Below, one piece after another: positions 6,986 to 16,034 of a stretch of DNA of 64,000 nt. The position numbers and the translations under genes are program-made. The notes below the pieces were generated by a model. That model saw only the letters and a program-made list of their open reading frames with translations, did not search any database and was not told where the DNA came from. Source of the DNA: Nitrospirales bacterium LBB_01 (GTDB lineage: Bacteria > Nitrospirota > Thermodesulfovibrionia > Thermodesulfovibrionales > Magnetobacteriaceae); the NCBI GenBank assembly GCA_004376055.2, contig CP049016.1:1054001-1118000 (forward strand), given 5' to 3'. Every line of letters begins with the position of its first letter. The stretch's first letter is position 1.

Positions 6986-7090
6986 GAATGTTAGTATAAG
7001 TCATTGCCTAAGGAGAAGGGGTAATAAATATGTTATAGGCTCTGCTGACTTATCAGTTGTTTTGTAAATAAAAAAATGGAGGGGGTTTCA

Positions 7091-7438
7091 ATGAAAAATG
7101 TTAATTCACTAAGGTTGTTTCTGTTAGCAATAACTGTAGCAACTCTAATGGTAGGAGGATGTGCGGGGTTAGAGCAGGCACATCATGGATATTTTATGAA
7201 GGGAAGTATATTAGAAAAAACGGGGGATGATGTGTATCTTTGTATCGGAACTAAAGATGGCACGAAGGTTGGCCAGGAGTTGGATGTGTATAGAAGTAAA
7301 AGATCTAACACTAAGAGTAGAGATTGGGAGCGTGTGTTTACAGGGAAAGTAAAAATTACGGAAATTGTTGATGAACATTTTGCAAAAGGTAAGGTTATAT
7401 CAGGAACTGTGAAGGAAAATGATATAGCCGAATTGTGA
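7091..7438 (+). CDS. Small putative lipoprotein
   Basis: A protein of 115 residues from the ATG at 7091, which is preceded by a strong GGAGGG site; an upstream in-frame ATG at 7076 overlaps that site and is less likely. The N-terminus is a signal peptide ending in the lipobox VGGC, so the mature form starts at Cys and should be membrane-anchored. The remaining 90 residues resemble a small beta-barrel (VGQELDVYR, GKVKITEIV, GKVISGTVKENDIAEL), similar in pattern to the extended-loop domains of other envelope lipoproteins. Its function is unknown. The upstream TTCA box suggests control by the neighbouring two-component system. Confidence 0.8.
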   Translation: MKNVNSLRLFLLAITVATLMVGGCAGLEQAHHGYFMKGSILEKTGDDVYLCIGTKDGTKVGQELDVYRSKRSNTKSRDWERVFTGKVKITEIVDEHFAKGKVISGTVKENDIAEL

Positions 7439-7461
7439 TGATGTTTTTAAGTAAATATCAA

Positions 7462-7486
7462 TACCCCACCGTTTTGCGGTGGGGTA
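7462..7486 (+). terminator. Hairpin downstream of the lipoprotein gene
   Basis: A 10-bp perfect stem (TACCCCACCG paired with CGGTGGGGTA) with a TTTTG loop begins 24 bp after the lipoprotein stop. No U-tract follows, so it may be a weak terminator or an mRNA-end stabiliser. Confidence 0.5.
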
Positions 7487-7499
7487 CTACAACATGAAA

Positions 7500-7519
7500 T
7501 TCATATTTTATTCACAATT
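7500..7519 (+). promoter_or_regulatory. TTCA(N7)TTCA box upstream of Met/Gly-rich peptide
   Basis: Reads TTCATATTTTATTCACAATT. Beyond the box the similarity to the 6966 site continues (TTG..TGTTAG.AT.AAG), which suggests that the two promoters share a core as well as an operator. Confidence 0.6.
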
Positions 7520-7569
7520 GTGTGTTAGCATTAAGGCATAGACTAAATCAAAAAAAGGAGGGAAAACAA

Positions 7570-7839
7570 ATGAGAGTTTCTAAAAACAGATTCCTTATAC
7601 TTTTGTTACTGATGATTTTAGTCCTGTCTCTGTGTGTCTATGGTAACAGTATTGCAATGATGGGCGGCGGCTGTTCTCAAGGCAATGGCGGAGGCATGGG
7701 TCAAGGCGGAGGTATGATGGGTAACGGTGGCGGTATGGGCAACGGTATGGGTCAAGGAATGGGCGGCGGTATGGGACATCAACCCCTGCCTGATAATAGA
7801 ACAGGTTCAGATATGGGAAATGGTTCTCACTTACACTAA
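7570..7839 (+). CDS. Secreted Met/Gly-rich peptide
   Basis: An 89-residue protein from the ATG at 7570, which follows an AGGAGGG site. A signal peptide (about residues 1-30) precedes a low-complexity mature part built from GMGQGGGMM-like repeats, with one Cys, many Met and a His-containing tail (GSHLH). I recognise no named family. Met-rich exported peptides often bind Cu(I) or similar soft metals, so metal handling is a reasonable inference. It is monocistronic, with its own TTCA box and a hairpin downstream. Confidence 0.75.
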   Translation: MRVSKNRFLILLLLMILVLSLCVYGNSIAMMGGGCSQGNGGGMGQGGGMMGNGGGMGNGMGQGMGGGMGHQPLPDNRTGSDMGNGSHLH

Positions 7840-7870
7840 TCGGTTGCTAACATTGATGAGTTTCCATAGT

Positions 7871-7908
7871 TCCCCGCTGGAGCAGAGTAAATGACTCTCC
7901 AACGGGGA
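7871..7908 (+). terminator. Hairpin after the Met/Gly-rich gene
   Basis: An inverted repeat pairs TCCCCGCTGGAG with CTCCAACGGGGA around a 14-nt loop, with one internal mismatch. It lies in the convergent gap between this gene and the radical SAM gene. A clear U-tract is absent. Confidence 0.45.
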
Positions 7909-7924
7909 TTACCTTTAACTAAAC

Positions 7925-9226
7925 TCAGAGTGCCCAGTCGTAGTCTTCCTCTTCTACAACTTTTTCCTGTTTAGATATGTAGTATGCGGGGTCATATATT
8001 TTTAAGCCAAGCTCAATAGCTCTTGCGTCATCAGTGCCAAAAATGGAGGCGTAGTCGCCGTGAAATCCATCACAAATCTCCTGCACTGAGCATCGTTTAC
8101 ACTTATCAGAATAACAATAATCGCACTGGCTTGTTCTAACCAGCGCATTTTCCCTATAAAAATTCTCTTCACGGACTCCTTTGCCAAGTTTTTGCTTGAC
8201 TGTGTTTACGACAAAACTTACATCCCGATAAAGCGCCTCTATTGGAGCACGTGTGCCGGGATATGTCCGTATTAACTTCTGAATGGCGTCTGTAGCAAAC
8301 TTGAGTGCAACCGGAAACTGCATGGTTTCAAGAGATATTGTTCTGCGGTCGATTGGCTTTGTCAGTTCCCCGTCTCTCATTCTTTGAGGTTTTAACGCTG
8401 TCCACGACCATGAGACATAGTCCCATTCATGCAGGTCATAGGGGTTCTGTTGAAAATTATAGATGTTTTTTCTGTGCCTTTCCTCAGCTAAACACATCGG
8501 TAAGTACCGGACGTTACACTCTATCCCAACATCCTCAAGAAAGTCCATTACCGGCGTAAGATATGACTTTACATCTGTATAGTTTGCCACATTTCCAGCC
8601 GACAGCTTGTCACTATTATGCTGGTCTTCAAACGGATTAAATGTTATGAAGTTTACCACACGCGCTCCTGTGCTATGGGCAAGCTCAGAAATAGCCATAA
8701 GCTCCGGCAGTGTTGTCTTGCTTAACACACAGTTAAATCTAAACGGAATGCCCTCGGCTATGATGTTTTCCAGCGCCTTCATCTGCTTTTTACTTGCCCC
8801 TTTTACGCCTACCAATGAATCGTAGTTATCGCCTAACCCATGCACACTGATAAGCAGGTCTCTTACCCCTGCCGCCTTTAAATCACTGCATCGGCTCCGA
8901 TTGGAAAGCAATATCGCATTAGTTATGAGAGTTGGCAAAAGCCCGATAGTGCGGCAGTGTTGGGTAAGCTCCAGGATTTCTTTGTACAACGTTGGCTCTC
9001 CGCCCTGAATATCTATCGCATTGTTATGGTAAAAATCAAAAAGACAAGAGCATATTGCCTTTGCCTTTTCAAGTGTCATGAAAGGATGCTCTTTGTGCGA
9101 CGCCGATTCTATTCTTTCAAGAAAATAACAGAATTGACAGCGCAAATTGCATGTCTGCCCAAGCCACATCACTGCCCTTCTGTTTAACACCCGTTTCTGT
9201 GTTTTTTTATAACCGGCTGTGTTCAT
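7925..9226 (-). CDS. Radical SAM protein with C-terminal Cys cluster
   Basis: A 433-residue iron-sulfur enzyme. The N-terminal CNLRCQFC (Cys 26, 30 and 33) is the radical SAM CxxxCxxC site, and the GGEPTLY block that binds SAM follows at about residue 95. The C-terminal segment CDYCYSDKCKRCSVQEIC resembles SPASM/twitch-type auxiliary cluster motifs. The substrate is unknown. It is the last gene of a three-gene set: the ETR1-like kinase and the GT2 glycosyltransferase overlap by 1 bp, and this gene starts 33 bp after the glycosyltransferase. A role in modifying a surface glycan or peptide is inferred from that context only. Confidence 0.88.
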   Translation of the reverse strand: MNTAGYKKTQKRVLNRRAVMWLGQTCNLRCQFCYFLERIESASHKEHPFMTLEKAKAICSCLFDFYHNNAIDIQGGEPTLYKEILELTQHCRTIGLLPTLITNAILLSNRSRCSDLKAAGVRDLLISVHGLGDNYDSLVGVKGASKKQMKALENIIAEGIPFRFNCVLSKTTLPELMAISELAHSTGARVVNFITFNPFEDQHNSDKLSAGNVANYTDVKSYLTPVMDFLEDVGIECNVRYLPMCLAEERHRKNIYNFQQNPYDLHEWDYVSWSWTALKPQRMRDGELTKPIDRRTISLETMQFPVALKFATDAIQKLIRTYPGTRAPIEALYRDVSFVVNTVKQKLGKGVREENFYRENALVRTSQCDYCYSDKCKRCSVQEICDGFHGDYASIFGTDDARAIELGLKIYDPAYYISKQEKVVEEEDYDWAL

Positions 9227-9259
9227 CCTCTGTCCTAAACAATACTTTACTACTATGAC

Positions 9260-10234
9260 TTAATTTCTGTAAATATAAAAATATATTTTCTTTAACCATT
9301 TAAGTGAGCCGATTTGCTTTCTTAGTCTGTCTGAGCCGCTTTCGCCTATAATTAATCGTATCGCTATTATAAGTATATCGTTAAACATGAAAGGATATAC
9401 ACTCATGCCTTTTAGCATCATCACAAGACCTTTTGCGTAATGCTTCTGACAGACACATCTATCTGCATTAAGCATAAACACTTTTGATAGCCTCTTTTTA
9501 AATTGGACTGAGGGGACACTGTGCCGGTATTTTTCTATCACGGCGGCCTCATCAGTGACCATCCTGTCAACGTGTTTTGAGATATTGCCCTCGTGAACTC
9601 TTATGTTTACGAGAGCCTTTTGAGTGCCGGCTATTTCATAGTGTTTTAGTATCCTAAGCCATAGGTCATAGTCCTCGGGACCTTTAAGTGACTCATCAAA
9701 AACGCCGCATTTTTCAAACACAATGCGTTTTGCCAGCACAGTAGATGGCATTATGAAATTAATCGTACTAAAGAGCCGCTGAAAAGTGACCGGTTGCATG
9801 TCCTCATATCTTGCGGCATTTCTGTTTACATCCAGCACACCGGTATCGCTAAATGTGTTGTAGTCGCAAAAGACCATCCCAATATCGTCTGACATATAAA
9901 GAACGTCAAGCAGCGCTTTTAACATATCGGCGTTATAATAGTCATCGGCATCACAAAAGGCAATGCAGTCTCCGGTAGCATGAGAAAGTCCTGTGTTTCT
10001 TGCTGCCGAGGGGCCTCTGTTTTTTTGATAAATATACTTAATTACGCCTTTTCCAACTAACGGCGCTAACACCTCTTTGGTATCGTCTGTGGAGCCGTCG
10101 TCAATGACCAGAATTTCAATGTTTTTGTAGGTCTGACCTATTACGCCGTCAACGGCTTTGCGCACGTATTTACTGCGGTTATATGTGGGGATTATAACAG
10201 AGACTTTTACAGCATCTCTGTCGTTATCAAACAT
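9260..10234 (-). CDS. Family 2 glycosyltransferase
   Basis: A 324-residue GT-A fold enzyme. It shows VSVIIPTYNRSKYV at the start, the nucleotide-sugar block VIDDGSTDDT, and the metal-binding FCDADDYY (DxD) at about residue 95. A C-terminal basic helix could associate with the membrane. The start ATG shares one base with the TGA of the upstream kinase gene (TGATG), a sign of translational coupling. The donor and acceptor sugars cannot be told from sequence; envelope polysaccharide synthesis is likely. Confidence 0.9.
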   Translation of the reverse strand: MFDNDRDAVKVSVIIPTYNRSKYVRKAVDGVIGQTYKNIEILVIDDGSTDDTKEVLAPLVGKGVIKYIYQKNRGPSAARNTGLSHATGDCIAFCDADDYYNADMLKALLDVLYMSDDIGMVFCDYNTFSDTGVLDVNRNAARYEDMQPVTFQRLFSTINFIMPSTVLAKRIVFEKCGVFDESLKGPEDYDLWLRILKHYEIAGTQKALVNIRVHEGNISKHVDRMVTDEAAVIEKYRHSVPSVQFKKRLSKVFMLNADRCVCQKHYAKGLVMMLKGMSVYPFMFNDILIIAIRLIIGESGSDRLRKQIGSLKWLKKIYFYIYRN

Positions 10235-11418
10235 CAGGTTGTACCATCGAGTGTATTTAAAACTATCTCAAACTCAGCACCTTCATTGACATTATGAACC
10301 GTTAAACTGCCGCCCATATTTGTCTCAATTATTGTTTTTGACATATAAAGCCCAATTCCTGTTCCCTCATGTTCTTTTGTTGTGAAATAAGGCTCAAAAA
10401 TTTTACCTATCACATCATCTGGAATTCCGCCGCCATTGTCTTTTACTAAAATTATAATTTTGGAGTTATCTTCGCTGTTTTTGATGTTAACCTCTATATG
10501 TCCCTTAATACTGTTATCCATTTTCTTTTTTGAAACAACAGCTTCTTTGGCATTATTTAAAATATTGAGTACCACTTGTTTAAACTCATTGGGATACCCA
10601 TCTGTAAGCAGTAACGCATCCTGTTCAGCACTAATAGAAACAACTACATTGTGTCTGTTATAAATGTGTATGAACATTGACAGCAGTTCTTCTATGGCTG
10701 ACTTCACATCAAATTTAGTTTTCTTTTTGGATGGTATGAAAAAATTTCTGAAATCATCAATTGTTTTTGCCATAAATTCTATTTGCTGCATCGTAGAACC
10801 TACTACATCATCGATGTATATATCATCAAGTTCGCCGTGTACATAAGCATCCTTAATGTCCTGAACGTTTAAAGTAACAGCGTTCAAAGGCTGCTTCCAC
10901 TGATGAGAAATTATTCCTATCATTTCACCCATAGAAGCCATCTTGGATTGTTGAATCAGCATTGCTTCACTTTCTATCAGTTTATCTACCGCTTTTTTCC
11001 GTTCTCTCATCTCTTTTTCTAAAGATCTATTTAATTCTTTTGTCTCCTCCAACGCTTTAGACAAGCTCGGCATAGAAATAGCTTGGGGAATAAGCGGAAT
11101 AAGATAGAATACGGTGATAATCGATACAAAGGCTGTGATTGCTTTAACTACTCCTTCAAGCCAGTAAGCAGGAACATATACAGTAAATGCAGAGAGCAAA
11201 TGCGTTGTTCCACAGGCAAAGATAAAGAGTCCAAACAGGATGAATACTGTTAAAAATACCATGTCACGCCTTTTATAAATAAAATAAAACAGCGCAATTG
11301 GGATTGAATAATAAGCAACGGCTGTAACTATATCGGATATTACATGTAATAATATAAGACCTGGCTCCCATAAGTAACAAAACCCGTGAGCCATATAACC
11401 ACTCGCACCATGATCCAT
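10234..11418 (-). CDS. Ethylene-receptor-like (ETR1-type) histidine kinase
   Basis: A 394-residue kinase. Residues 10-110 form three membrane helices that match the ETR1 ethylene-binding domain: VISDIVTAVAYYSIP carries the conserved Asp of helix 1, and FACGTTHLLSAF carries the Cys/His pair that holds Cu(I) in ETR1. A short coiled coil follows, then a HisKA-type box with ISHQWKQPLNAV and an HATPase domain (DNGGGIPDD, GTGIGLYMSK). It lacks a receiver domain. Bacterial ethylene-binding domains are known, for example in cyanobacteria, so copper or ethylene binding is plausible but unproven. Its kinase module is nearly the same as that of the broken kinase at 11748. It overlaps the GT2 gene by 1 bp. 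Confidence 0.9.
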   Translation of the reverse strand: MDHGASGYMAHGFCYLWEPGLILLHVISDIVTAVAYYSIPIALFYFIYKRRDMVFLTVFILFGLFIFACGTTHLLSAFTVYVPAYWLEGVVKAITAFVSIITVFYLIPLIPQAISMPSLSKALEETKELNRSLEKEMRERKKAVDKLIESEAMLIQQSKMASMGEMIGIISHQWKQPLNAVTLNVQDIKDAYVHGELDDIYIDDVVGSTMQQIEFMAKTIDDFRNFFIPSKKKTKFDVKSAIEELLSMFIHIYNRHNVVVSISAEQDALLLTDGYPNEFKQVVLNILNNAKEAVVSKKKMDNSIKGHIEVNIKNSEDNSKIIILVKDNGGGIPDDVIGKIFEPYFTTKEHEGTGIGLYMSKTIIETNMGGSLTVHNVNEGAEFEIVLNTLDGTT

Positions 11419-11464
11419 TATATCTTATTGTATAACAACTATTAAGAACAATGTCAAGACAGCG

Positions 11465-11681
11465 CAGGGCAAACGCATTAGAAAAAAAAGCAGCAAAAGA
11501 CTTCTCTGTTGCAAGGCAGAATTTTTAGAGAAAAGGACTGGATTCCCGCTCGGAGGCGGGAATGACAAGGAAGGATATGTCTTTTTTTTGTCATTCCTGC
11601 GCAGGCAGGAATCCAGTTTTTTAGCGAAGCTACACTGCATTGGCAATATATTATTATTTCCTGTGAAATGCGTTTGCCCTG
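11465..11681. mobile_element. 217-bp MITE-like element with perfect TIRs and target duplication
   Basis: This non-coding element fills most of the 329-bp gap between two kinase genes. Its ends are perfect 15-bp inverted repeats (CAGGGCAAACGCATT at 11465-11479, complement at 11667-11681). It is flanked by a 10-bp direct repeat CAAGACAGCG at 11455-11464 and 11682-11691, which looks like a target duplication. The core holds the GGATTCCCGC...GCGGGAATGACA hairpin and the GTCATTCCTGC...GCAGGAATCC hairpin shared with the elements at 26394, 50234 and 61459, although those have different ends. No transposase is encoded. Confidence 0.7.
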
Positions 11682-11747
11682 CAAGACAGCGTGGCAATTA
11701 CCTTCTTTATTATAGGTAAAAAGTCACTGTTGTGAATCCACTGAATA

Positions 11748-12866
11748 CTATGTTTCCATTGCTGCCAAACTTATAACAAACTCAGCGCCGCCATCAACAT
11801 TATGAACCGTTAAACTGCCGCCCATATTTGTCTCAATTATGGTTTTTGACATGTAAAGACCAATTCCCGTACCTTCTGTGCCTTTAGTTGTAAAGTAGGG
11901 CTCAAATATATTATCTATCACATCATCGGCAATTCCGCCGCCGTAGTCTTTAAGTGAAATAATAACTTTCGATTTGTCTTCATTATTTGCAATGTTGATT
12001 TCTATGACTCCACTTATGCTGATGTCAGAATTGCGCCTTGATTTTATAGCATCTTTTGAGTTATTCATAATATTAAGTACAACCTGCTTGAACTCGTTGG
12101 GGTAGCCTTCTGTTAAGAGCAATGTATCAGGTTGAACAGTTAAGGTAACATCTACATCATGCCTATGGTAAATATGAATAAACATTGAAAGCAGTTCTTC
12201 TATGGCTGATTTTACGTCAAACTTAACTTTTCTTTTAGACGGTATGAAAAAATTTCTGAAATCATCAATAGTTTTTGCCATAAATTCAATCTGCCTCATC
12301 GTAGAATCCACAGTTTCACTGATATATTTATCGTCAAGCTCACCGTGAATGTAAGCCTCTTTAAAGTCCTGAACATTTAGTGTAACGGCATTCAACGGCT
12401 GCTTCCACTGGTGAGCAATAAGGCCTATCATCTCACCCATAGACGCCATCTTAGATTGCTGCATCAGCATTTGTTCCTTCTGTCTGTGCTTTGTAGTCTC
12501 CTCTTTAACCATCGACTTTAGGCTTTCATTGAAATCTTGCAGCAGCACGGTTTTTTCTTTTAACTCCTCCGCTATGCGCTTTCGTTCGGTTATTTGTACC
12601 AATAATGGTTTAAACACAAAGAAGTACAAAACTGGATAAAGCAAAAGCACTAAAATGAAGCTGTCGGCAAAGTTGAGAAACATCTCTGACGATATAATCT
12701 CGTTCTTTTTTGCATTGTCTAACAGCACCATGATAAGAAATTCTGAAATAAATACAGTTGCTATTGTAGTAACAAACAGGTAGATTGACATGTGCTTCCG
12801 TTGCTCTAAATGTGCCTCTAAAGTTTGTGAAACAGTAAATTCTTTTTTATTTTTTAAATATACAAA
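11748..12866 (-). pseudogene. C-terminal part of IS3-split sensor histidine kinase
   Basis: This is the 372-codon 3' part of a kinase gene cut by IS3; the 5' part is at 14181-14789. Two membrane segments (IYLFVTTIATVFISEFLIM and a second at FILVLLLYPVLYFFVF) lead to a coiled coil, a HisKA-type box (IAHQWKQPLNAV) and an HATPase domain (GTGIGLYMSK). Removing the IS and one copy of the 3-bp CAG target repeat restores an unbroken 575-codon frame. A TTG inside the IS end (12884) opens a frame into this part, so a membrane kinase fragment could still be made. Its kinase module is a close paralogue of the ETR1-like kinase, with a 44-bp identical DNA run (10289-10332 and 11797-11840). Confidence 0.85.
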
Positions 12867-12936
12867 CAGTATAGTGGATCCCAAATATGAGACAATCAGT
12901 TAAGATAGAGCTGGTTGTAATGAATGGGAGGATAAA

Positions 12937-13230
12937 ATGAAAAACAGACGGAAGTTTGGCAAAGAGTACAAAGCAAAAGTAGCAATAGAAGCGCTCAAAG
13001 GTCAGAGGACAGCCAATGAGATAGCGCAGGAATTTGATATTCATGTGAACCAGGTGAATGAATGGAAAAAGCATTTAGTAGAAGGGGCGTCAACGTTATT
13101 TAATGGAGTGCAAGAAAATTCTCAGGCGGCATATGAATCAGAGCGAGAGCGGTTATATAGTCAAATAGGGAAGTTGCAAGTAGAAGTGGACTGGCTAAAA
13201 AAAAAGAGCCTGTTACTTGCGCAACGGTAA
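12937..13230 (+). CDS. IS3 OrfA (HTH protein)
   Basis: A 97-residue protein with an N-terminal helix-turn-helix (FGKEYKAKVAIEALKGQRT) that recognises the IS ends, and a C-terminal leucine-zipper-like segment for multimerisation. Near its end the run A9G (13197-13206) provides an A AAA AAG slippery site; a -1 shift there enters the orfB frame at GAG CCT GTT and yields the OrfAB transposase. OrfA alone generally regulates transposition. Confidence 0.93.
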   Translation: MKNRRKFGKEYKAKVAIEALKGQRTANEIAQEFDIHVNQVNEWKKHLVEGASTLFNGVQENSQAAYESERERLYSQIGKLQVEVDWLKKKSLLLAQR

Positions 13231-13244
13231 GTGAGAAACGAGCG

Positions 13245-14072
13245 ATGATAGAGCCAGCAAATAAGGAATTGAGTATTCGTCAGCAGTGTAACCTGCTAAG
13301 CCTTCCACGCTCCAGTTATTATCGTCAGGCAGTACCGGAGAGCGAGGAGAATTTGAAGGTGATGAGGGCAATAGATGAGCAGTACACAATGCATCCATGG
13401 TATGGAAGCCGCACAATGGTTTACATTCTTTTCCGAGCAGGATATAAAGTAAATCGCAAGCGAGTAAAGCGTTTGATGATGTTGATGGGTCTTGTATCTA
13501 TAGCACCCAGAAAAAGAACGACAGTACGGAATAAGCAACATAAAGTTTACCCTTATCTACTGCGATTATTAGATATTACTATCATCAACCAAGTCTGGTG
13601 CAGTGATATAACGTATATTCGAATGAGACATGGCTTTGTGTATCTGACAGCAGTAATGGACTGGTATAGCCGCTATGTGCTGTCATGGGAGGTGTCAGTG
13701 ACAATGGATGATGGTTTTTGCGTAAGTAGCCTTGAGCGAGCCCTTAGGCTCTATGGCAGTCCTGAGATATTCAACACAGATCAAGGCAGCCAGTATACAG
13801 GGGCAGCGTTTATCAATGTGCTTCAGAGCAATGGGATTCGGATAAGTATGGATGGCAGAGGACGGGCTATGGATAATATCATGATTGAGCGGCTGTGGCG
13901 CAGTGTCAAGTATGAGGAGGTTTATATAAAAGATTATGAAACTGTTGATGAGTTGATTAAAGCGCTAAGGAGCTATTTTGATTTTTATAACAATGAGCGT
14001 CCGCATTCTACGCTTAGAGGCAAAACACCTGCCGAGGTTTATAAAAGCTCTGATTTTGCGATGGCGGCGTAA
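13245..14072 (+). CDS. IS3 OrfB, DDE transposase catalytic part
   Basis: A 275-residue rve-type integrase core. The DDE residues are visible in WCSDITYIRM, NTDQGSQYTG and the Glu of MIERLWRSVKYEE. An N-terminal HTH_21 region precedes the core. The functional product is probably the OrfAB fusion, since the open frame continues upstream of the ATG to the frameshift site. The frame is intact, so the element may be active. Confidence 0.95.
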   Translation: MIEPANKELSIRQQCNLLSLPRSSYYRQAVPESEENLKVMRAIDEQYTMHPWYGSRTMVYILFRAGYKVNRKRVKRLMMLMGLVSIAPRKRTTVRNKQHKVYPYLLRLLDITIINQVWCSDITYIRMRHGFVYLTAVMDWYSRYVLSWEVSVTMDDGFCVSSLERALRLYGSPEIFNTDQGSQYTGAAFINVLQSNGIRISMDGRGRAMDNIMIERLWRSVKYEEVYIKDYETVDELIKALRSYFDFYNNERPHSTLRGKTPAEVYKSSDFAMAA

Positions 14073-14180
14073 GGATGCATTACCCTATCCCTTACCCTTA
14101 TACTAACAGACTAAATACCCTCTTAGAGGGCTATACCTTAAGTCCACTAAAAAGTGGTCTTGACAATGGGGTCCACTATA

Positions 14181-14789
14181 CAGTGACATCGCCATAAAAA
14201 TAATAGACAGGATAATAACCATAATGGATGAACGTGATACCAAACTTGAGAGCAACGCCTTTTTCTGTGTTATATCGTAGTAAATCTCAAATGCTCCGAC
14301 AAACCTGTTATCTTTCATAACTGGGATGTATGTCTCAACAACATCTAACTTTATAATTTTATTCTCTAATGATTTAGTCTCTTTAGGTACGACTTTAGTG
14401 TATTTTTGCCCTTTGGCTACGATTTGTTGAAAGTAGGTATTTTTGTTTACATCTCCGATATCCTCTGCATCTGAAGAGTACAGAACCTCGCCATCGGGAG
14501 CATAAATTTTGAGTTCTATAATCTTAAATTCCACCTGCATAGTCTGCAAATTCTTAATAAACCCCTCAGAGATGTCATTTTTGTTAATTTTACCTAAAGT
14601 TACAGGAAGCATAGAGGATAAATAATTGGCTACTCTTAGTGCCTCATCTTCAGTATTATTCTTAAGTAGTTCATCAAAAGATGGGTATAAAAAAGCAAGG
14701 TTATACACTGGAAATGCAATTGCAACAATCAGGGAGATAACCAACAATAAGCCGGTTGCTCTTTGGTTAGTGGCGCTTGATGTCTCCAT
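14181..14789 (-). pseudogene. N-terminal part of IS3-split sensor histidine kinase
   Basis: This holds 203 codons from the ATG at 14789 (preceded by GGAGGAA) to the IS3 edge; the frame then runs into IS sequence and stops at 14103. A first membrane helix (about residues 12-32), a periplasmic Cache-like sensor (LKIYAPDGEVLYSSD, YIPVMKDNRFVGAFEIYYD) and the start of a second helix (MVIILSIIFMAMSL) are present. The missing membrane segments, HisKA and ATPase domains are at 11748-12866. As it stands the product would be an anchored sensor with no output domain. Confidence 0.88.
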
Positions 14790-14936
14790 ATATATTCCTC
14801 CAGGCTACGTTCATTAGCACGGTTACACCCCTACTATACCATTTTTCTTCACACCAACACAATACAAAACCACTATTGAAAAATTTAGTTGATGTCGTTT
14901 AGAATAGGAGAATGTGAAAATGGGAGGTAAAAGTCT

Positions 14937-15101
14937 ATGTGGCAGTGTCCGGCAGCTAATTGTGGTTATATATATAACCCGGCAAAGGGTGACAAGAAGG
15001 GAAAGATACCATCTGGTACAAAATTTGAGGATTTACCGGAGGACTGGAAATGCCCGTTGTGCGGGGTAGGCAAAAAATTCTTTAAACATGTAGAACCTTA
15101 A
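14937..15101 (+). CDS. Rubredoxin (CX4C variant)
   Basis: A 54-residue iron protein. The Fe ligands are in [11 protein letters not shown] and CPLCGVGKK. The first pair is spaced CX4C instead of the usual CX2C, a variant also described for a second rubredoxin type in Desulfovibrio. It serves as a one-electron carrier, often to oxygen- or superoxide-reducing enzymes; the same arm encodes a hemerythrin. GGGAGG lies 7 bp before the ATG. It is monocistronic. Confidence 0.93.
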
Positions 15102-15228
15102 AGCAATATTTAACTTTCCACAGTTATGACACCTTTGGGTCAATTAAGACGCTCACATTTAAAATGGTATTCGGAATGCTCTTTATCGTAATTATAAGAG
15201 CAGTTTAATAAAATGCAGTCATCTCGTG

Positions 15229-15234
15229 TATAAT
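15229..15234 (+). promoter_or_regulatory. -10 box for a probably leaderless nuclease mRNA
   Basis: A perfect TATAAT ends only 7 nt before the GTG start of the nuclease gene, so transcription would begin at or next to the start codon. There is no ribosome-binding site in the gap. No good -35 box is seen. Confidence 0.5.
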
Positions 15235-15241
15235 ATGAACT

Positions 15242-15859
15242 GTGGCAAAGAAAAAGGGCAAAGGAAATTTTCTTAGAAGGGTAGTTTATTTATTAATAAT
15301 AGCTGTTTTGATTTACGTAACGATTTTTGGTTTTTATCCGCGGTACAAAAAGCAAATTCCCACACTCGTTAGAAAAATTCCGTACTTAGAGAAGATATAC
15401 AAACCTGCCGGCACTCCGATAAAAGCCCGCGTGGTGAGAGTGTATGACGGTGACACTGTTGTGGTTGCGCCATTAGAGGGAAACAAGCGCTTTATTTGCC
15501 GACTTTATGGGATTGACGCTCCTGAGGTCTCCAACATGTCACAGAAAGGACAGCCTTATGCCGTTGAGTCTTTGCAGGAGTTAAAAAAGTTAGTTTCTGG
15601 ATACACAGTTGAAGTTACCACAACAGGGGATAGCTCCTATAACCGGGAGATATGTCTGATTACCCGAGATGGACTTGACATAAACCTTGAGATGGTAAAA
15701 AGAGGCTACGCATGGGCATACGTTAAATACCTTAAGAAGGAGGACTCAGGCAGGTACGTCGATGCTAAAATTGCAGCTAGTGAAAAGAAACTCGGACTGT
15801 GGCGGCAAAAAGCCCCTGAGCCTCCGTGGGAATTCAGAAAGAGACATGAATTCAAATAA
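15242..15859 (+). CDS. Membrane-anchored thermonuclease-like (SNase) protein
   Basis: A 205-residue protein. A basic N-terminus and a single membrane helix (VVYLLIIAVLIYVTIFGFY) precede an SNase OB-fold domain (about residues 58-200). Key blocks are VRVYDGDTVVV (Ca-binding Asp), CRLYGIDAPE (first catalytic Arg) and YNREICLI (second Arg). It probably cleaves DNA or RNA outside the cytoplasmic membrane. GTG is the only reasonable start and sits directly behind a -10 box, implying a leaderless message. Confidence 0.9.
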   Translation: MAKKKGKGNFLRRVVYLLIIAVLIYVTIFGFYPRYKKQIPTLVRKIPYLEKIYKPAGTPIKARVVRVYDGDTVVVAPLEGNKRFICRLYGIDAPEVSNMSQKGQPYAVESLQELKKLVSGYTVEVTTTGDSSYNREICLITRDGLDINLEMVKRGYAWAYVKYLKKEDSGRYVDAKIAASEKKLGLWRQKAPEPPWEFRKRHEFK

Positions 15860-16034
15860 AAGGAGTTTTTATTTCAAAGGGTTTAAAAAAGCTGGTGACG
15901 GTACATATGCACTTTGACTTAATGATGGACTTTATATATAATACACTACAGGATGAATGATTTCATTGCGTGTGATATGGATATAATTAAGATGCTTAAA
16001 ATTACTGAGCTAAGTCTTGTGTTTAAGGAAGAAG

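Follow-up and report, generated by a model that had tools for sequence, protein, structure and literature searches.

An ethylene-receptor-type, predicted Cu(I)-dependent sensor kinase of apparently mosaic make-up beside a glycosyltransferase and radical SAM gene pair in Nitrospirales bacterium LBB_01

In the genome of Nitrospirales bacterium LBB_01, a histidine kinase gene runs directly into a glycosyltransferase gene. A sequence-only reading of this locus had proposed that the kinase is an ETR1-like sensor of the ethylene or copper type and that it is tied to modification of the cell surface. Does the kinase carry such a sensor, and is the sensor tied to its neighbors? We addressed both questions in a 64,000-nucleotide stretch of contig CP049016.1 (the window). 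The kinase gene (10234-11418, minus strand; ATG start, TGA stop), identified from its ORF and Pfam matches, encodes 394 amino acids. Its product is very probably a genuine membrane sensor kinase with a complete ethylene-binding domain, as in plants and cyanobacteria. With good confidence, we regard it as an ethylene-receptor-type bacterial sensor kinase, predicted to depend on Cu(I), of mosaic make-up and with a local, recent link to the genes for a family 2 glycosyltransferase (GT2) and a radical SAM protein.

The Pfam ETR1_N profile (PF25487) matches residues 21-115 (11074-11358, minus strand) with an E-value of 3.2e-35 and 120.7 bits, against a cut-off of 27. The match covers positions 2-96 of the 97 in the profile and is thus full length as well as significant; the E-value excludes chance. 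It is the only ETR1_N domain above the cut-off in the whole 3.27 Mb genome, which is a single contig, and no such domain exceeds the cut-off in any of 14 control genomes. NCBIfam searches of all proteins returned generic names only, below the cut-off.

The residues expected of an ethylene receptor are present within this domain. The sequence-only reading had recognized the helix 1 Asp of ETR1 in a VISD motif and the copper-binding Cys/His pair in an ACGTTH motif. Both assignments hold: VISD occupies residues 26-29 with the Asp at D29, ACGTTH occupies residues 68-73 with C69 and H73, and the motifs lie in predicted helices 19-49 and 56-79, respectively. All seven ethylene-binding residues of the ETR1 literature are kept at a constant +4 offset and with no gap, as D29, Y36, I39, P40, I66, C69, and H73. 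Y36 matches Y32, which we take to be the seventh ETR1 residue of the set. The other six are D25, I35, P36, I62, C65, and H69 in ETR1 numbering (PMC6586836, PMC11819568, and PMC12643061). K92 is also kept and is the counterpart of the ETR1 output lysine, K91. Among 50 homologues drawn from many phyla, Y36, I39, C69, and H73 never vary, and D29 (47/50), I66 (49/50), P40 (42/50), and K92 (44/50) are nearly or largely invariant. Together, the profile match and the full set of copper and ethylene residues point to an ETR1-type sensor, as had been proposed.

AlphaFold2, supplied with an alignment of homologues, predicts three long sensor helices (residues 19-49, 56-79, and 85-115) with a mean pLDDT of 87.6 and values mostly above 90 within the helices. 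This agrees with the three N-terminal helices of the earlier reading, as expected of the membrane helices of such a receptor. That reading had also suggested a structural comparison with ETR1: the three-helix model is confident, but a fold search with it gave no match at E <= 0.001, as is expected when there is no solved ETR1 membrane domain to match. A sequence search of the PDB likewise found no match for the sensor, and for the full protein it found kinase cores only. For the whole kinase, prediction from the single sequence gave a poor model (pLDDT 48.6), which we did not use.

Downstream of the sensor (residues ~19-115), the predicted helices and our reading of the conserved boxes give a coiled-coil linker (residues 116-158), an H-box with His172, and N, G1, F, and G2 boxes at residues 277, 327, 340, and 352. 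A Pfam HATPase_c domain spans residues 276-387 (E-value 1.2e-19). The phosphoacceptor histidine, H172, and the four further boxes of a functional two-component kinase are all intact. The gene adjoins another kinase gene and the GT2 gene, with no cognate response regulator beside it; an adjacent response regulator accompanies 22 of 66 parsed ETR1_N genes, which makes the arrangement common and not obligatory.

The protein is closest in plan to the characterized bacterial receptors. AzoEtr1 of Azospirillum brasilense has the same residues and binds ethylene with high affinity (PMC11819568). The two share an N-terminal ethylene-binding domain, a histidine kinase output, and identical spacing of the key residues (D to C, 40; C to H, 4; H to K, 19; in AzoEtr1, D35, C75, H79, and K98), but neither the PAS domain of AzoEtr1 nor its neighboring response regulator gene has a counterpart here. 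SynEtr1 (slr1212) of Synechocystis also joins a three-helix ethylene-binding domain to a histidine kinase; it additionally senses light and signals to the response regulator slr1213 (PMC6682694 and PMC6508509), whereas here the transmitter is bare and no regulator gene lies alongside. Arabidopsis ETR1 has the ethylene-binding residues at constant spacing and the output lysine in helix 3, but it differs in having GAF and receiver domains, in its N-terminal disulfide cysteines C4 and C6 (here, an HGxC motif lies near the N terminus), and in a loop between helices 2 and 3 that is longer by 3 residues than the loop here.

We then consider the neighbors. The kinase stop codon (10236-10234) and the ATG of the GT2 gene (10234-10232) overlap by one base in the sequence TGATG, just as the sequence-only reading had noted. 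The GT2 gene (9260-10234, minus strand) encodes 324 amino acids and is followed after 33 bp, again as noted, by a gene for a radical SAM protein of 433 amino acids (7925-9226, minus strand), with a CxxxCxxC motif and a C-terminal cysteine cluster that looks SPASM-like by eye. Because the overlap leaves no space in front of the GT2 gene for a separate promoter, cotranscription with the kinase is likely in this genome. Promoter and terminator scans performed at chance level, and there is no Rfam family within 7000-16000. In a genome of the same class (G209), the radical SAM orthologue (58% identity) lies among genes read by eye as GT2, flippase-like, sulfotransferase-like, and GT9-like. This polysaccharide setting supports, from gene content, the view that GT2 and radical SAM form a surface-polysaccharide modification module; the pair is conserved in relatives and is found with polysaccharide genes. 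The kinase gene is probably on one transcript with these two genes, whose products may modify a surface glycan. One cluster of that genome (L185, 5126-9776) contains two radical SAM and two GT2 genes and is a possible functional setting for the pair in the window.

Relatives keep the pair and not the sensor. One genome of the same genus (G002) retains GT2 (83%) and radical SAM (90%), again separated by 33 bp, together with the nuclease gene beyond. The interval between GT2 and the nuclease holds, by eye, a PAS-containing hybrid kinase, a stand-alone receiver, and a receiver-HD-GYP protein in place of the two kinases of the window. A second genome of the genus (G003) has the same cassette across contigs, with GT2 split over two of them and both genes of the pair kept at 84-89%. 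Over the two genomes, identity is 83-84% for the intact part of GT2 and 89-90% for radical SAM, the receptor kinase is absent, and the signaling cassette lies 17 bp upstream of the same GT2. The one full-length receptor orthologue within the family (Nitrospirae nDJH5bin4, G017) adjoins genes named by eye as VOC and YkgJ-like, opposite an unrelated gene. Among 80 ETR1_N loci, searched over up to 8 kb on each side, a GT2 occurs at one (L082, the record of this same orthologue), and a radical SAM gene of the type in the window occurs at none. Since relatives pair GT2 and radical SAM with another cassette, and since the orthologue and the 80-locus survey show receptors with other neighbors, the overlap of receptor and GT2 genes is specific to this genome and is not conserved in relatives; sensor, GT2, and radical SAM do not stay together across relatives as an operon. 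Of the proposed tie to surface modification, probable cotranscription with GT2 in this genome survives, and a conserved functional unit does not.

It is therefore unlikely that the locus is a dedicated circuit in which an ethylene- or copper-responsive kinase controls GT2 and radical SAM so as to remodel the cell surface. The one-base overlap on the same strand, the placement of a signaling cassette 17 bp upstream of the same GT2 in relatives, and the glycan cluster around the radical SAM orthologue are all consistent with such a circuit, and the ethylene receptors of Synechocystis and Azospirillum do alter the cell surface or biofilm (PMC6682694 and PMC11819568). However, genomes of the same genus have the pair without the kinase, the orthologue lies elsewhere, and 79 of the 80 ETR1_N loci have no GT2 nearby. 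Moreover, sharing an operon with other genes is not enough for a kinase to regulate them, and this unit has no response regulator. As a speculative idea with somewhat more room, the site upstream of the conserved pair may be a sensor-exchange site, where recombination swaps inputs onto one surface-modifying output: it holds a cassette of hybrid kinase, receiver, and HD-GYP protein (c-di-GMP type) in two members of the genus and the ethylene-receptor kinase here. If so, the transmitter of the latter would have been retailored from the neighboring kinase.

The same sensor residues bear on what is sensed. That the domain responds to copper itself, or to another Cu(I) ligand such as CO, acetylene, or another olefin, and not to ethylene seems improbable to us: I39, P40, and I66, which matter for ethylene beyond the copper ligands, are kept too, and characterized bacterial members with the same residues bind ethylene. 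Nevertheless, the copper ligands are the most conserved part of the domain, ligand preference is not set by residues alone, and the records of relatives are environmental metagenome bins and not plant isolates. The genome encodes a CopA-type Cu ATPase; such ATPases are near-universal. On the preferred reading as an ethylene-type receptor, C69 and H73 of a homodimer, with D29 close by, would hold Cu(I) within the membrane, and ethylene would bind the copper. The ensuing change would travel along helix 3 (K92) and on through the coiled coil so that autophosphorylation of H172 changes and, by analogy, decreases. Phosphate would then pass to a response regulator that we place elsewhere in the genome, since none is adjacent to the kinase. 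An ethylene-type sensor in a lineage not associated with plants would suggest ethylene or a similar Cu(I) ligand as a signal for such environmental bacteria.

The kinase itself looks, from its sequence, like a mosaic. Its closest receptor relative is the G017 orthologue (61% identity overall; L004, L053, and L082), which is alike in architecture and length. Identity to this orthologue is 71% over residues 1-115 and 66% over the linker segment 116-144, where no sampled paralogue exceeds 43%. Over residues 175-394, identity to the orthologue is only 52%, against 74% to the adjacent kinase, and the orthologue is more distant than 28 of the 29 sampled paralogues; it also differs in its neighbors and has no GT2 overlap. 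The drop between halves gives a Fisher p of 3e-4 in a contingency test for which the paralogues were chosen as top matches of this kinase. At the DNA level, the kinase and its sister are 77% identical over about 700 bp, and the genome holds about 89 matches to this transmitter. A transmitter tree, in which 17 of 29 branches are open, lacks the support needed to position the two ETR1 kinases, so the mosaic call rests on the segment identities. The pattern is most simply read as exchange or conversion with the neighboring kinase, although the G017 gene could instead have evolved fast or undergone a replacement. We favor the mosaic, in which an inherited ethylene sensor and linker would sit on a transmitter from the large paralogous stock of the lineage, probably through exchange with the adjacent kinase or conversion from it. 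It would show clearly, on a small scale, an ethylene sensor carried by a transmitter of the lineage's own stock.

The surroundings of the kinase are mobile. The sister kinase (11748-12884, minus strand), with its about 74% identical transmitter, had a different, dCache-type sensor that has been cut off by an IS3-type element (12875-14180, plus strand; OrfA 12937-13230, OrfB 13245-14072) with a repeated CAG at its ends. The severed sensor part (14103-14789, minus strand), whose last residues run into the element, matches Pfam dCache_3 below the cut-off (E-value 7e-4). About 25 near-identical full copies of the element are present in the genome, suggesting a recent burst. Between the two kinases lies a MITE-like element of 217 bp (11465-11681, plus strand) with 16-bp perfect terminal inverted repeats, flanked on both sides by the 10-bp repeat CAAGACAGCG; about 14 further near-identical copies occur in this genome and mostly fragments in relatives. 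It is very improbable that such elements have stranded the kinase in a volatile locus as an idle or decaying copy: the split paralogue, the MITE just upstream, and the absence of the receptor from same-genus genomes would fit, but the ORF is intact and every sensor residue and all kinase boxes are conserved.

In its wider setting, the kinase is well preserved but an ordinary addition to a known family: bacterial ethylene receptors have been described from cyanobacteria and Azospirillum and across many phyla. What it contributes is an intact, compact kinase with no PAS or GAF domain from a lineage not associated with plants; none of the papers searched discusses ethylene receptors in Nitrospirota. 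The 80 ETR1_N loci in named genomes come from Nitrospirota, Proteobacteria, Cyanobacteria, Planctomycetes, Acidobacteria, Bacteroidetes, and others. The domain occurs in 14 of 395 genomes of the phylum sample, and a receptor orthologue in none of the three other genomes of the genus, a patchy pattern that fits gain and loss in this lineage of a broad receptor family.

Several related proteins were seen along the way. Two weak ETR1_N matches elsewhere in the genome, which carry an HGxNEW motif and lack the Asp, Cys, and His, were not accepted as ethylene sensors. A separate membrane sensor family (L002, L003, L006, and L011), distantly ETR1_N-like and without Asp, Cys, or His, has an HGxNEWxD motif and recurs in the family. 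In L079, a degenerate ETR1_N receptor, Asn replaces Asp and both copper ligands, Cys and His, are gone, but a kinase-like ATPase domain is retained. Five short Nitrospirota proteins of about 200-280 amino acids (L069, L070, L073, L074, and L080) consist of ETR1_N and a coiled coil with no kinase domain; these kinase-less ethylene-type sensors end in a shared GRExRMIELKxEIN-like motif.
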